This document shows positions 5,820 to 62,795 of a stretch of DNA of 64,000 nt, piece after piece. Every line of letters begins with the position of its first letter. Position 1 is the stretch's first letter. The notes below the pieces were generated by a model that worked only from the letters and a program-made list of their open reading frames with translations, did not search any database and was not told where the DNA came from. A program made the position numbers and the translations under genes. The DNA comes from Fomitopsis serialis (lineage: Eukaryota; Basidiomycota; Agaricomycetes; Polyporales; Fomitopsidaceae): positions 62,001-126,000 of the forward strand of contig NW_025955024.1 in the NCBI RefSeq assembly GCF_022376445.1, written 5' to 3'.

Positions 5820-8020
5820 CTAGGCATGTACAGATGCACTAAAGACAGCGTCGAAGTACCGCCTCGCCCACTCCGTCCCGCTAGCTATCCCGCCGATATA
5901 ACCATCAGGTCGAATAATGACAATCATGCACTCGTTCTTCTGCACTTGGTAGCCCTCATGTGCGTGTCCATCGCGATCCACGAGCGTCATGTCGGTACCA
6001 TCGAGAATCGGCAGGGAAGCTGCGCCATCGCTGTGGATGAGCACCTTGCACAGGAGCTCCGATGGGTATTGCTGCAGAGCCGACACGATCTGCAGAGGCT
6101 TGTCGGTCCCATCGCTGAAGATGAGTACAGTATGATACGACGGCTGGAATATGTCGAACAACGAGGTCGTCTGAACGCCGTCCGCGTCTCCCGCCGTAAA
6201 AACAAGGCCCGTTGCCTCAGGAGCACGCTCTCCCGCCCGCACGACATCCGTGAGGGACTGCAGCACGCCGTACGGGTCAACGGGTGTTCCCTCCTTGGGC
6301 GTGCGCTCGTCGAGTACGATGGGGCTCCAGCGGTAGTTGACGCCGAACATGTGCAGGTCGCCGCCACGCTTCCATGCCTTCTCGGTATCCACGCCGTCGC
6401 CTTTGGCATCTACAGCCATGTCAAAGAGCTCGGTGGACTTCCTGAGCAATTCGGCGATTACTGGGAGGCGCTCGTCGGTGTAGGAGTCTAGTAGGGAGGG
6501 AGCTGCGATGCCCTTCGCAACCAAGGCGAGTTTCCAGCCGAGGTTCACCTGCGTATGGTTGAATTAGACATGCACAGTAACTTGTGTGTGACAGACCTAC
6601 CGCATCCTGAATACTCGAGTTGAGGCCTTGTCCGCCAAATGGACTGTGAACATGAGCCGCATCTGAGCAAGTAAATGAGCATGACCTCCTGGCAGCCTAA
6701 ACAGTTAATTAAGCTTACCACCGACGACGAAGACCAGGCCTTTGCGGAACGTCTCGGCCATGCGGACATGAGGCCTATAATGATTACTTCAAGAGCTGCG
6801 GCAATGAGAAGCAATAAGTGAGCCTACCTGTAGTCCGCGATAACATGGACTGCCTCTAGCTCAATGTCTGTGCGGCCGGTACCGACTCTGAGGACCCTTT
6901 GCAGTTCGGCTGGTTCCGCGACAATCTTCGCGTGGTCGACGTGGCCGCCCACGAACATGGCGTGGATATGAGGGTCTTCTGTCGGGCGAAGCAAGATCCT
7001 GTTATACATTAATCTTTGACGTATACCTTGGAGAAGAGGAGGGAACACTTACAAAGTAGTATGCATGTCTCCCCAAGAATGCCAGTGCTACATGAGGTCA
7101 ATAACGGATGGACGTCAAAACACAGGGTATGACTTACATCTGCGTCGAGTCCCTTGATTTGTACGTCGCCGATGACCATGCGATGGGTAGCTCCTAAGGT
7201 TTCCCCATCGAAGGTGAGACCCAGCTGCTTCCGGACAATGCCTACAATCACAAGATTGATTAGTATAATGCACACTAGTGCACATTTCTCAGATGAGATA
7301 TGTGGGAGCAAACCTTTTGCTCCATCTGCGCCAATCAGCCAGCGACACTTGATAGTCTCGATTACTTCTCGGTCCCCGTCCTGTCTCAGGACATATGCGA
7401 CGACGTGATCGACTTCTGTCTGGAAGCTACACAGAGCTACGCCCGATTCGACTTCGCAACCAAGGCGTTCGAGGTGGCTCCGCATGATCGCTTGCGTCTG
7501 GTTCTGTCCCAGCAAGGATGTATTTCCCTGCGGTTGATGATGAGCCACATGGAACCGGAGCACAGCACTGATAAACGATGCACGTACATACGGCTTGTAG
7601 GGTGTCGGCTCTACAATCGGTTCTAGTGGAAAAGTGGCGATGGCTTCATCACCCTCCGGAAGCTTGTACACTCGCATAGGGTGCATTGGTATGGAGTGCG
7701 CGTGTATATCATCCAGTATACCCAATATCTTGAATATTTCTTGCGAACGAGGCTGACGGACACAAAAAAATCGTTAATTCTAATGATGCGACAATCATCA
7801 ACGGGTATACTGACCATGAGTGCTGCCCCGCGCTGCCCGACGTTCACTCTCAGCTCTTTCTCGATTATTCGCACTGGTATGCCATTCTTGCGCAGGGTGA
7901 GCGCGGCAATGAGTCCTGCAGGCCCGGCTCCGACCTGCCTCACCCTTCGGTCAGCACAACGATCACAGCGTTAATGGTTGCACTTACGATCAAGACCGGC
8001 ATTTCCAAATTAGCAGACAT
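5820..8020 (-). CDS. FAD-dependent monooxygenase, phenol 2-monooxygenase-like
   Basis: The gene is read from 8020 leftward. Exon 1 (8020-7988, M-S-A-N-L-E-M-P-V-L-I) is followed by exon 7934-7815 carrying the FAD-binding G-A-G-P-A-G and the glutamate that binds ribose (R-I-I-E-K-E). Exon 7752-7588 begins P-R-S-Q-E-I-F. Later exons carry R-W-L-I-G-A-D-G-A-K-G (the family's DG motif), H-S-W-G-D-M, the [16 protein letters not shown] motif (GD-type FAD contact region) and [10 protein letters not shown]. The end is a thioredoxin-fold C-terminal domain. All introns are short and no break was seen. The enzyme should hydroxylate a phenolic or other aromatic substrate using FAD, NADPH and O2 in the cytosol. 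It is one of three paralogues in the first 12.4 kb. The exact substrate cannot be read from sequence. Confidence 0.85.
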
Positions 8021-10100: not shown

Positions 10101-12321
<2,221 letters not shown>

Positions 12322-13549: not shown

Positions 13550-14120
13550 TTAGCTGCATGCCAACTGCCATCCCTACGCCACTCGATATTGTTCGGACCA
13601 CAGCGCGATCACGTGATGCACCACACCGCGACCTTGCCAGTGCCCGGCTCACGGACACTTCGTCCATCTAGTACCCATCGCGATATACCTCTGCTGCTAG
13701 TTCCGGCCCAAAGATATCCTACGCGGGACGACGCACCCTCAAGGGAGTGCACAGTGGCTATAACTTGACGACCTCCGGCGGCGCGTCGACGCCCGGGTGT
13801 TCCCCCTCGCGTGATTGAGCGGATATTCGACCTCTCCTGTCCAAGAATTGCGCGGACCTCCATGCATGTAGGGAGCAGCTCAAATATCACATGGCGATAC
13901 TTATACAAGAAGTGCGTCGCGGACGGGACAACAGGGTGGACCGTCGTAGGACGATGGCTGTCGTATGCGTGGTTCAAGGACTACTCGTTGGAGAGAAGCT
14001 ATGGCGAGCCCCTGTTGTGTGCACAACGTATAGCACGGCCGTTTGCGGCACTGCGGAGTGTGCGAAGATTTGACAAGAGTTGTCTAGGCATCGTGACCTG
14101 GAAATATCGGAGTAGGGATG
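13550..14120 (+). pseudogene. Decayed copy of the BTB-domain gene (C-terminal half)
   Basis: The region matches the coding strand of the BTB gene at 48846-49858. Shared blocks include the C-C-C-G-G-C-T-C-A-C stretch near 13,640, T-G-C-G-C-G-G-G-A-C-G-A-C-G-C-A-C-C-C near 13,720, and the translated runs E-R-I-F-D-L-S, T-G-W, G-Y/S-Y-G-E-P and L-C-A. The copy carries several indels and a stop at 14071-14073, so no full frame survives. The 5' BTB half is not recognisable. It lies next to the cysteine peptide gene in the same relative arrangement as the intact copy, which places it in the inverted segmental duplication. Confidence 0.75.
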
Positions 14121-14577: not shown

Positions 14578-14740
14578 TTACTTGCTCTTCGGGGGCTCAG
14601 CGCAGCCGCACGCGGGGTAGGTGCAGGAGCCGCCGTTGGCCTGGACGTTTGCGCAGGTAGCCTTGTCCTGTCGTGCCATCCACCGTCAGTCCCTGCCCGT
14701 GCATCAAGGTCAATGCCAGGAGATGATAACTCACAGACAT
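14578..14740 (-). CDS. 31-residue four-cysteine peptide, left copy
   Basis: Exon 1 is only ATG TCT (14740-14735). A 67-nt intron (GTGAGT ... CACGACAG) follows, then exon 2 at 14667-14578 with 29 codons and TAA. The peptide starts M-S-D-K-A-T-C-A-N-V-Q-A and ends C-G-C-A-E-P-P-K-S-K, with cysteines at 7, 17, 22 and 24 (C-x9-C-x4-C-x-C). Its translation is identical to the copy at 48256-48418; the two coding exons differ by two synonymous changes. A TATAAAAG box on the same strand lies 89 bp upstream. There is no signal peptide, so it is probably cytosolic. The C-x-C pair and small size suggest metal binding, as in metallothioneins, but the spacing does not match a family I know and this is only inference. 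Confidence 0.75.
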
Positions 14741-14821: not shown

Positions 14822-14829
14822 CTTTTATA
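14822..14829 (-). promoter_or_regulatory. TATA box of the left cysteine peptide gene
   Basis: TATAAAAG on the minus strand, about 89 bp upstream of ATG. The surrounding sequence (GAGGGTATAAAAGGAACG, and C-C-A-A-T about 110 bp further upstream) is nearly identical to the promoter of the copy at 48256. Confidence 0.65.
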
Positions 14830-47589: not shown

Positions 47590-48157
47590 CGTAACACGGA
47601 GTCTGAATGGAAAGCCGAGCTACAGCGGCAGTGCACACGGGGGCGCTGTGAAGGCCACGGAGGGTAGGGAATAGAGGTCCTGGAAACCACTGAACGGCGT
47701 GAGATCCTTCGATTATGTAGCTATAAGCCGATCACTCGTTCTCGACAGATCCTGTGCAAACTCTCGCAGGTATGGCACCAAACCATGAGTATCTCGAGCT
47801 CATGTGCTGGGTTACACAAATGTGACATTGCCCATGTAGACGTGGACAGATGGTCTCCAACGAGACTCCGATGTGGACCTGATACGAACCCCACGAAGGA
47901 TGAAGCGCCAACTGTGAAAAGATGCCGATGCATACATAGCTTCCGTCGCAGACGGCCGAGCGAACGAAAACCCGGCAGTTACTCACAATCGGCCAGCTGA
48001 GACTATCAAGGCCTCCCTGCAACGCGTCGAGCTTCTTCACTTCCGTCGACATGACTGTTCCACCCGTAGCCATTGGCGATATCAGTCACCCAGTAGCAAC
48101 TGTCGTATAACACAACGCTGCACAGAACACAGTCATCGGTCATCCCAATCCAAAGCC
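47590..48157. other. Spacer between the PB1 and cysteine peptide genes, conserved in the left copy
   Basis: This region separates divergent genes. Its right half (about 48,000-48,250) is recognisable at 14,760-15,040 in inverted orientation, including CCATTGGCG and the CATCCCAATCCAAAGCCAAG block. No gene was seen within it. Confidence 0.55.
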
Positions 48158-48164
48158 AAGAGGG

Positions 48165-48172
48165 TATAAAAG
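48165..48172 (+). promoter_or_regulatory. TATA box of the right cysteine peptide gene
   Basis: TATAAAAG lies 91 bp upstream of ATG in the context GAGGGTATAAAAGGAACG, matching the left copy almost base for base. A CCAAT motif (CCATTGG on this strand, about 48,071-48,077) lies roughly 90 bp further upstream. Confidence 0.65.
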
Positions 48173-48255: not shown

Positions 48256-48418
48256 ATGTCTGTGAGTTGCCGTCTCCTAGCATTGACCTTCATGCGCGGA
48301 CAGTAACTAACGGCGGACGGCATGACAGGACAAGGCTACCTGCGCAAACGTCCAGGCCAACGGCGGCTCCTGCACCTACCCCGCGTGCGGTTGTGCTGAG
48401 CCCCCGAAGAGCAAGTAA
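48256..48418 (+). CDS. 31-residue four-cysteine peptide, right copy
   Basis: Exon 1 is ATG TCT (48256-48261), then a 67-nt intron with GTGAGT and CATGACAG, then exon 2 at 48329-48418. The product begins M-S-D-K-A-T-C-A-N-V-Q-A-N-G-G-S-C and ends C-G-C-A-E-P-P-K-S-K. Relative to the left copy the coding exon has only two changes, both synonymous (GGT/GGC and TGT/TGC), while introns and flanks carry many substitutions. Four cysteines in 31 residues with a C-x-C pair, no hydrophobic leader and a lysine-rich end suggest a soluble metal- or thiol-active peptide; this is inference. It lies between a PB1 gene and a BTB gene, both on the other strand. Confidence 0.8.
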
Positions 48419-48845: not shown

Positions 48846-49858
48846 CTACTCCGGCACCTCCAGGTCAAAATGCTTAGGCAGGTCCTCCCAAATCTTCGCG
48901 CACTCCGCGCGGTGCTGGGACTCCAACAACGCCATACAATGCGCACACAGCGGTGGCTCGCCATAGCCCTTCTCCGACGAGCAGCCCTTCAGCCACACAT
49001 ACGGCAGCCACGGCCCCGCGACGTTCCACCCTGCCGTCCCGTCCGTGACGCGCTTCTTGTATATCGCCATGCGGTACTCGAGCCGTTCCTTGCATGCGCT
49101 GAGGTCCGCGCAGTCCTTCGACAGGGAGAGGTCGAATATTCGCTCCAGTGCGCCGTCCTTCGCGCGGGTGAGGAACACGCGTGCGTCGACGCACCGTCGG
49201 AGGTCGTCGAGGGAGAGCTGCTGTGTGCTCCCGTCAGGGTGCGTCGTCCCGCGCAGCAGGTCCTCTGTCCGGAGCTGGCAGCAGAGGTACATCGCGATGG
49301 GGAGAACGGACGATGTGTCGGTGAGCCGGGCGAGGTTCACGGCGGCGATGGGGTCGAGGCCGTAGCGGCTCCATTCGAGGTAGCGCGGCTTCTCGTACCA
49401 GCTCGCATATTGGTTGTCAAGGAACGTCTTGAGCACGCCGAGCGCGTCATTGTACAGGTTGTCTATTTGGTACTTGCGCCCGAGGCGAACGAGCGCATCT
49501 GTCGTCGCGAAGTCGATGCGCGTGCCGTCCAGCAGTCGGCTGTCAGGGCTTGAGCATTATCAACTCTGCGCACACGACCTTGCCAAGCACAAAGCCAGAC
49601 TTACCGGCCGCTGCCCAGCTGCACGCGCAGGAGTATGCGCAGGTCCTCATGGAAATCGGTGAGGTGGACGATCGGGCAGCCGTCGAGGACCTCGGCGTGG
49701 TTTGGCTGGGGGAGGGAGAACAAGTCCGCGAAGAACGGAGAGTCGCGCGCGAGTAGGCCCTGGTAGACGCGGAAACCAAATCCGGACGCCACGAGGACCA
49801 CGTTCCCGTCTGGGAACCAGAACTCTCCGTCTCGCTGGATGCACGGCGGAGGCGACAT
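48846..49858 (-). CDS. BTB/POZ-domain protein
   Basis: Two exons (49858-49605 and 49539-48846) give 315 residues. The first 110 residues have the BTB pattern of Agaricomycete proteins: D-G-E-F-W-F-P-D-G-N-V-V-L-V-A, F-R-V-Y-Q-G-L-L-A-R-D-S-P-F-F-A-D-L-F-S-L-P, then V-H-L-T-D-F-H-E-D-L and A-L-V-R-L-G-R-K-Y-Q-I-D-N-L. The C-terminal part has nine or so cysteines and histidines (L-C-C-Q, S-K-D-C-A-D-L-S-A-C, P-L-C-A-H-C) but no complete finger. BTB domains dimerise or link targets to Cullin-3; the family is greatly expanded in mushroom-forming fungi and mostly uncharacterised. The junction at 49605/49539 restores R-V-Q-L-G-S-G-R|R-L-L-D-G. A decayed copy lies at 13,550-14,120. Confidence 0.85.
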
Positions 49859-62573: not shown

Positions 62574-62731
62574 TTACTTGCTCTTCGAGGGCTCAGCGCA
62601 GCCGCATGCGGGGTAGGTGCAGGAGCCGCCGTTGGCCTGGACGTTCGCGCAGGTGGCCTTCTCCTGTCAACGTCTCTGCGTCAGGTCCTATGCGAGCATC
62701 AGAATCGGACCTTCGAGATACTCACAGACAT
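62574..62731 (-). CDS. 31-residue four-cysteine peptide, third copy
   Basis: Exon 1 is ATG TCT (62731-62726), then a 62-nt intron (GTGAGT ... GTTGACAG), then exon 2 at 62663-62574. The product differs from the other two copies at two residues only (Asp3 to Glu, Pro28 to Ser) and keeps all four cysteines. The intron, promoter and flanks are not alignable over any length with the other copies, so this is an older paralogue, and its protein conservation is strong evidence for coding function. Confidence 0.78.
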
Positions 62732-62787: not shown

Positions 62788-62795
62788 CTTTTATA
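62788..62795 (-). promoter_or_regulatory. TATA box of the third cysteine peptide gene
   Basis: TATAAAAG on the minus strand, about 64 bp upstream of ATG. CCAAT-type sequences (GCCAATGG, CATTGGACC) lie about 60-90 bp further upstream, as in the other copies. Confidence 0.6.

Follow-up and report, generated by a model that had tools for sequence, protein, structure and literature searches.

A predicted family of 31-residue four-cysteine peptides with a two-codon first exon in the polypore Fomitopsis serialis

Gene structure at the locus

The window, a 64,000-nucleotide stretch of Fomitopsis serialis DNA, is part of one contig (C601) of an assembly of 66.2 Mb in 806 contigs and harbors three copies of a very short gene, here termed A, B, and C (Table 1). 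At each copy, ATG TCT is followed by an interval of 62–67 nt that begins with GTGAGT and ends with CAG, and then by a 90-nt second exon. The interval between ATG TCT and exon 2 is predicted to be spliced, such that the mature reading of exon 1 plus exon 2 gives a 31-residue peptide, MSDKATCANVQANGGSCTYPACGCAEPPKSK, with four cysteines (13%) spaced as C-x9-C-x4-C-x-C. Direct reading confirms every element of the initial annotation at these three loci (the ATG TCT start, intron length, exon length, and cysteine spacing), as well as its statement that two copies are the same in protein and the third is two residues off. The two substitutions, D3E and P28S, are both in copy C.

Table 1. Coordinates of the three gene copies, their promoter elements, and the adjoining reading frames in the window
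Feature	Position	Strand	Basis or remark
Copy A exon 1, ATG TCT (Met-Ser)	48256..48261	+	read directly
Copy A putative intron, 67 nt, GTGAGT...CAG	48262..48328	+	predicted from conserved splice consensus
Copy A exon 2, DKATCANVQANGGSCTYPACGCAEPPKSK then stop	48329..48418	+	translation; pN/pS 0.064 across 14 loci
Copy B exon 1, ATG TCT	14735..14740	-	read directly
Copy B putative intron, 67 nt	14668..14734	-	read directly; splicing predicted
Copy B exon 2, peptide as in copy A	14578..14667	-	read directly
Copy C exon 1, ATG TCT	62726..62731	-	read directly
Copy C putative intron, 62 nt	62664..62725	-	sequence; matching copy C108:20309; splicing predicted
Copy C exon 2, EKATCANVQANGGSCTYPACGCAEPSKSK then stop (D3E, P28S)	62574..62663	-	translation
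Copy A TATAAAAG box at -91	48165..48172	+	sequence and motif scan
Copy B TATAAAAG box at -89	14822..14829	-	sequence and motif scan
Copy C TATAAAAG box at -64	62788..62795	-	sequence and motif scan
Copy A ATTGG (inverted CCAAT) at -184	48072..48076	+	motif scan
Copy A second CCAAT	48145-48149		motif scan
ORF of 236 codons, convergent, downstream of copy A	48849..49556	-	no Pfam match
Relative of the 48849..49556 ORF, convergent beside copy B	13668-14112	+	no Pfam match
Peptide forms named for the family, MSDKATCANVQANGGSCTYPACGCAEPPKSK and MSDTVKCANVEKNGGSCSWPACGCAEPPKSK			

Copy number and loci in the assembly

Exon 2 yields 34 matches in the assembly by DNA search and 36 by protein search. 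ATGTCT lies within 110 nt upstream of exon 2 in all 36 close copies (35 parsed, plus the window copy at 62731) and is directly followed by GTGAGT in 34; the donor is GTAAGT in C112a and is lost in C24. Comparison of the flanks together with a pair list collapses the 36 matches to 22 loci. The list contains thirteen allele pairs with flank identities mostly of about 89 to 99.6%, a fourteenth pair is formed by the window copy at 62731 and C108:20309 (identical over the 150 bases compared), and eight copies are left unpaired. From this pattern, many contigs would seem to represent alternative haplotypes. An intact allele is found at 20 loci, all of which keep ATGTCT, with the donor GTGAGT in 19 and GTAAGT in one, while two loci (C3 and C24) are degenerate. 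The hidden family proposed from three loci is thus borne out and is much larger than had been claimed.

Four alleles (C274, C470, C146b, and C134c; L004, L008, L023, and L024) share a C5-to-C4 contraction in a CCCCC tract close to the frame's end, and each has an intact partner allele. Because all four are hit at one homopolymer, a sequencing error looks likely, and the contraction is probably an assembly error at this homopolymer, with real polymorphism as the alternative. An error of this kind would also conceal genes from annotation. A further allele, C241:28k, carries Asp at position 15.

DNA matches of at least 150 bp between different loci mostly cover the region from about −100 to +160 relative to the ATG. 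Longer stretches are shared by window copies A and B (1,487 bp at 75% identity, extending to the neighboring ORF), by the duplicates C201 and C426 (78% over about 1.8 kb), and by the C241 and C334 loci (up to about 510 bp).

Conservation and selection

The 20 intact loci comprise an MSDKATC subfamily (14 loci), an MSDTVKC subfamily (four loci), and two more diverged members on C112. Twelve of the 14 MSDKATC loci are identical in protein, and this subfamily has a pS of 0.289, a pN of 0.0184, and a pN/pS of 0.064. The ratio is 0.138 for the MSDTVKC loci and rises to 0.276 across all 20 loci because the subfamilies differ in protein. Within the main subfamily, the variable exon-2 columns are distributed as 4, 2, and 17 over codon positions 1, 2, and 3, respectively, such that third positions account for 17 of 23 (binomial P 8e-5 against one third). 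The exons of these 14 loci share an identity of 0.92, while their introns show 0.53 (0.47 when shuffled), the 100 bp preceding the ATG 0.58 (0.51 shuffled), the 100 bp following the stop 0.54 (0.49 shuffled), and the region from −400 to −300 0.50 (0.49 shuffled).

Exon 2 is 90 nt long without indels in 20/20 intact loci, and the intron ranges from 51 to 70 nt. Because exon 2 is free of indels, pN/pS is low, and variation concentrates in third positions while introns and flanks have diverged, the comparison strongly supports a hidden protein-coding family with a predicted two-codon first exon. The coding reading with conserved cysteine spacing, as first proposed, is upheld by the same ratio and third-position excess. 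Residues M1, S2, C7, A8, G14, C17, P20, C22, G23, C24, S30, and K31 are invariant across the 20 loci, and position 19 is occupied by Tyr at 14 loci and by Trp at six. The residues beside the cysteines are not all constant, as the intact locus C201:83.5 carries T25 and R27.

Relatives

Seven relatives are present in the protein collection, two from L. sulphureus 93-53, one from Rhodonia placenta (IEO21_01758), and four without a species name; the reach of this search is limited to close relatives, and short genes frequently go unnoticed. The L. sulphureus and R. placenta entries are uncharacterised proteins. Two of the four models without a species name start with MSVS and run to QDKATC, which would correspond to the reading of an unremoved ATGTCTGTGAGT intron. 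Two of the named-species models contain ...MSDTVKC, which fits a removed intron, the alternative being an intronless gene.

A C112 peptide as a query adds two weak matches in the assembly, C605 (E 0.003; L046) and C223 (E 0.013; L047). In both, a two-codon first exon (ATG GCT) is followed by GTGAGT and a predicted intron, and the encoded peptide is longer, with the core C-x11-C-x4-C-x-C. The C-terminal end of this distant paralogue reads CAYPACACAEPP in C605 and CAHPACACAEPP in C223, and the product of the distant relative has 49 residues and terminates in LPGYPMSAAWVAEV. The equivalent of position 19 is His in one allele of the paralogue, and the four cysteines and P20 are kept both there and in the two named species. 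Its Pfam and NCBIfam matches lie solely below the curated cut-offs. The split-start architecture probably predates the window family. Diverged or broken relatives of an ATG GCG type adjoin C605 (C605:2016; L052).

Promoters and codon use

Promoter motifs were counted in the 400 bp upstream of the 20 loci and in 78 control stretches taken at these loci; controls near tandem copies may contain the promoter of a neighboring copy. TATAWRNG occurs in 17/20 promoters versus 12/78 controls, and TATA-like boxes lie 64–100 bp 5′ of the ATG in 19/20 loci. CCAAT, on either strand and within 400 bp, is present in 19/20 promoters versus 41/78 controls, and GACTAC or its complement in 14/20 versus 13/78. 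An CAGTCCTCGACTACAC-like element recurs shortly 3′ of the TATA box in many of the 20 promoters and is probably the transcription start region.

The metal-responsive elements scanned are not enriched (MRE, 7/20 promoters versus 27/78 controls; ACE1/CUF1-type, 4/20 versus 26/78; CuRE, 0/20 versus 4/78), a weak test because they derive from other organisms, the elements of polypores being poorly known. The STRE (5/20 versus 37/78) and two HSE forms (0/20 and 1/20 versus 4/78 and 9/78) are likewise not enriched, and the Yap1-type TGACTAA is not clearly so (1/20 versus 1/78). Raised counts are seen for the loose TGACNNNGC motif (8/20 versus 14/78), GATA (14/20 versus 37/78), and the iron-type ATCWGATAA (2/20 versus 1/78).

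Codon counts restricted to amino acids with a C-ending codon put the share of such codons at 0.72 for the family, compared with 0.47 for four histone H3 exons and 0.49 for three ORFs of the window. From this bias we infer a high expression of the family.

Database, structure, and literature searches

Pfam and NCBIfam scans of the family peptides give no match, a PDB sequence search returns just two matches at chance level, and an Rfam scan of the window at the gathering threshold returns none. Pfam Metallothio_Euk has no match in the family's own genome or in any control, which makes this negative uninformative. A metal-free model built for the L. sulphureus protein P0004 from 10 sequences has a pLDDT of 56.5 and a pTM of 0.25 and thus no confident fold, which fits a metal-folded peptide but does not show one. 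By inspection, none of the 20 peptides has a hydrophobic stretch or an N-terminal signal peptide of the kind carried by secreted small cysteine-rich proteins.

In the papers searched, a set from which most subscription papers are absent, there is no mention of the family's sequence motifs or of the relatives' locus tags. Titles and abstract openings of the metallothionein papers that this search listed for Polyporales, Laetiporus, basidiomycetes, and brown rot name no such peptide. The "small cysteine-rich proteins" of Lignosus sclerotium, considered as possible relatives, are cerato-platanins and hydrophobins according to the accessible part of the report (PMC4659598). Two further candidates were rejected on family traits: the twin-CX9C mitochondrial proteins, given the single Cx9C and Gly-rich loop of the peptide, and the CaaX pheromones, given its KSK tail.

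Comparison with fungal metallothioneins

According to the accessible part of PMC12508003, the heptaCys motif of mushroom metallothioneins contains C-x4-C-x-C twice, the short forms listed in Table 1 of that source have 32–35 residues, and the genes for AcMT2 and AcMT1 are divided into three or four exons by introns of roughly 50 bp. As far as the accessible descriptions go, the family resembles AcMT2, AsMT2, PiMT1, LbMT1, and CcMT1/2 (32–34 residues) in its size, its C-x4-C-x-C module (a likeness of three cysteines, judged without statistics), its small introns, and its gene duplication. With 31 residues at 20/20 intact loci, the peptide falls within the short-form limit of at most 35. However, in those same descriptions the Agaricomycete short metallothioneins have seven cysteines arranged as C-x4-C-x-C-x2,3-C-x-C-x4-C-x-C, while the family has four, a single module, and Tyr/Trp. 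The heptaCys C-terminal pattern is absent, since all 20 intact loci have C-x9-C-x4-C-x-C with one C-x4-C-x-C module. Instead of three or four exons, the family would have two, and its one predicted intron (51–70 nt) follows codon 2, unlike those of the Agaricomycete short forms as accessibly described.

The Cu-thionein units of Neurospora/Agaricus bisporus and of Cryptococcus/Tremella contain seven cysteines, three C-x-C, and no aromatic residue each. In contrast, the peptide has only four cysteines and a single C-x-C, and its position 19 is aromatic (Tyr/Trp) in 20/20 intact loci. The TmMT unit of Tremella, given as CXCX3CSCPPGXCXCAXCP in the accessible text of PMC4755600, ends in the order C-x4-C-x-C-A, then Pro, which is common to the family; the position of the unit's last cysteine is Pro in the family (19/20 loci). 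The initial interpretation holds in part, namely for the hidden coding family, and the metal or thiol activity that it proposes is conjectural. One C-x4-C-x-C module is common to the peptide and mushroom metallothioneins; four cysteines, a single C-x-C, and Tyr/Trp 19 speak against a textbook metallothionein.

RaZBP1 and RaZBP2 of Russula atropurpurea are said to be metallothionein-like zinc peptides, mushroom metal-binding peptides that are treated apart from metallothioneins. SlMTa/SlMTb reportedly represent a metallothionein family that is conserved among basidiomycetes (Nguyen et al. 2017). In the accessible part of PMC9320278, this Cu-thionein family is said to be ubiquitous in Agaricomycotina, R. 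placenta included; it is called highly conserved, no other metallothionein type is said to have been detected in either R. placenta or P. chrysosporium, and mycorrhizal-type metallothioneins are reported as not found in R. placenta. The family appears to lie outside the cysteine patterns of the fungal metallothioneins compared, a set that the SlMTa/SlMTb sequences stand outside. Its assignment to a described metallothionein type is not supported.

Proposed function

With about an even chance of being right, the peptide may be an abundant cytosolic metal-thiolate or thiol buffer that is amplified by gene dosage and works like a small metallothionein. This reading is favored because the cysteines are constant, a C-x-C is present, no signal peptide is seen, the gene is multiplied, and no confident metal-free fold was obtained. 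C-x-C spacing is typical of metal thiolates. The peptide would be a small, soluble, cytosolic thiolate ligand, with a TATA/CCAAT core promoter driving strong expression and with multiplication over about 20 loci serving dosage. The C-x9-C-x4-C-x-C pattern, with its constant [Y/W]-P-x-C-G-C, could bind a single Zn/Cd ion in tetrahedral coordination or, alternatively, a small Cu(I) cluster. It would buffer metal, and perhaps the redox state too, as a constitutive component instead of a metal-induced detoxifier. The peptide would thus be a functional analogue of a minimal metallothionein, without the cysteine pattern of any fungal metallothionein compared. The role of the predicted intron behind codon 2 is probably to raise expression through splicing-dependent enhancement and not to diversify the protein. 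The broader proposal is that polypores carry a new minimal four-cysteine metal-thiolate class built around [Y/W]-P-x-C-G-C, whose peptide stays near-invariant as its gene spreads over about 20 dispersed loci per haploid genome. It would supply constitutive metal buffering in a group of which one member, R. placenta, reportedly lacks the mycorrhizal-type metallothioneins. This proposal is a tentative one, with somewhat less than an even chance.

Several other readings bear on the same features. A structural or redox peptide is rather unlikely, though it would account for the Tyr/Trp-Pro beside the cysteine cluster in 20/20 loci, for S30 and K31 in 20/20 with a nearly constant tail, and for the lack of metal-element enrichment in the promoters. 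Its cysteines would pair in two disulfides, or it would serve as a thiol donor or as a small adaptor of another protein, with [Y/W]P and the PPKSK tail as a binding surface and any metal incidental. However, disulfides are disfavored because the peptides have, by inspection, no signal peptide and would reside in the reducing cytosol; the C-x-C is a mark of metal thiolates, and no family or fold was found. Membership in a named metallothionein family such as SlMTa/SlMTb is improbable. R. placenta carries the peptide, and the accessible part of PMC9320278 names that type as the only one detected there, but a ubiquitous family should yield more named matches than two species, within a search that reaches close relatives only.

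The MSD start, the about 20 copies, and the two prolines bracketing a 7-residue stretch give the peptide a superficial likeness in layout to an MSDIN-style ribosomal peptide precursor. Precursors of that type have a hypervariable core between a constant leader and tail. Here the bracketed stretch is the same in 16/20 loci, one residue off in three, and two off in one, and this reading is very improbable because the core is constant. A repeated non-coding element with an exon-2 frame open by chance would agree with the broken or degenerate frame in four alleles and two loci. Nevertheless, it has a next to negligible probability, given the third-position share and pN/pS reported above, an exon 2 without indels in the 20 intact loci while introns vary from 51 to 70 nt, and the existence of relatives in other species.

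If the metal-thiolate or thiol-buffer reading is correct, wood-rot fungi possess a high-dosage peptide system that handles metal or thiols and has been overlooked. It would then bear on the copper tolerance of wood-decay fungi, given the wide use of copper-based preservatives and the reported lack of mycorrhizal-type metallothioneins in R. placenta, both noted in the accessible part of PMC9320278. The family also illustrates that very short split genes can multiply about twentyfold and yet be hard to recognise.

Neighboring reading frames

The relative of the copy A-adjoining ORF beside copy B is matched in pieces split between frames and is therefore degenerate or intron-bearing. Copies A and B with their adjoining ORFs look like one segmental duplication because of the 1,487-bp stretch that they share. 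Pfam scans of seven window ORFs find FAD_binding_3, HEAT repeat, RSN1/PHM7, FAD_binding_6, and GT8 in five and nothing in the two beside A and B; none of the seven gives a functional hint for the family. Two ORFs on the minus strand, at 5820-6563 and 10101-11129, are similar by eye and of the FAD-dependent monooxygenase type, the FAD_binding_3 match belonging to the latter, which is the one of the pair that was scanned. The two are apparently a local duplication.
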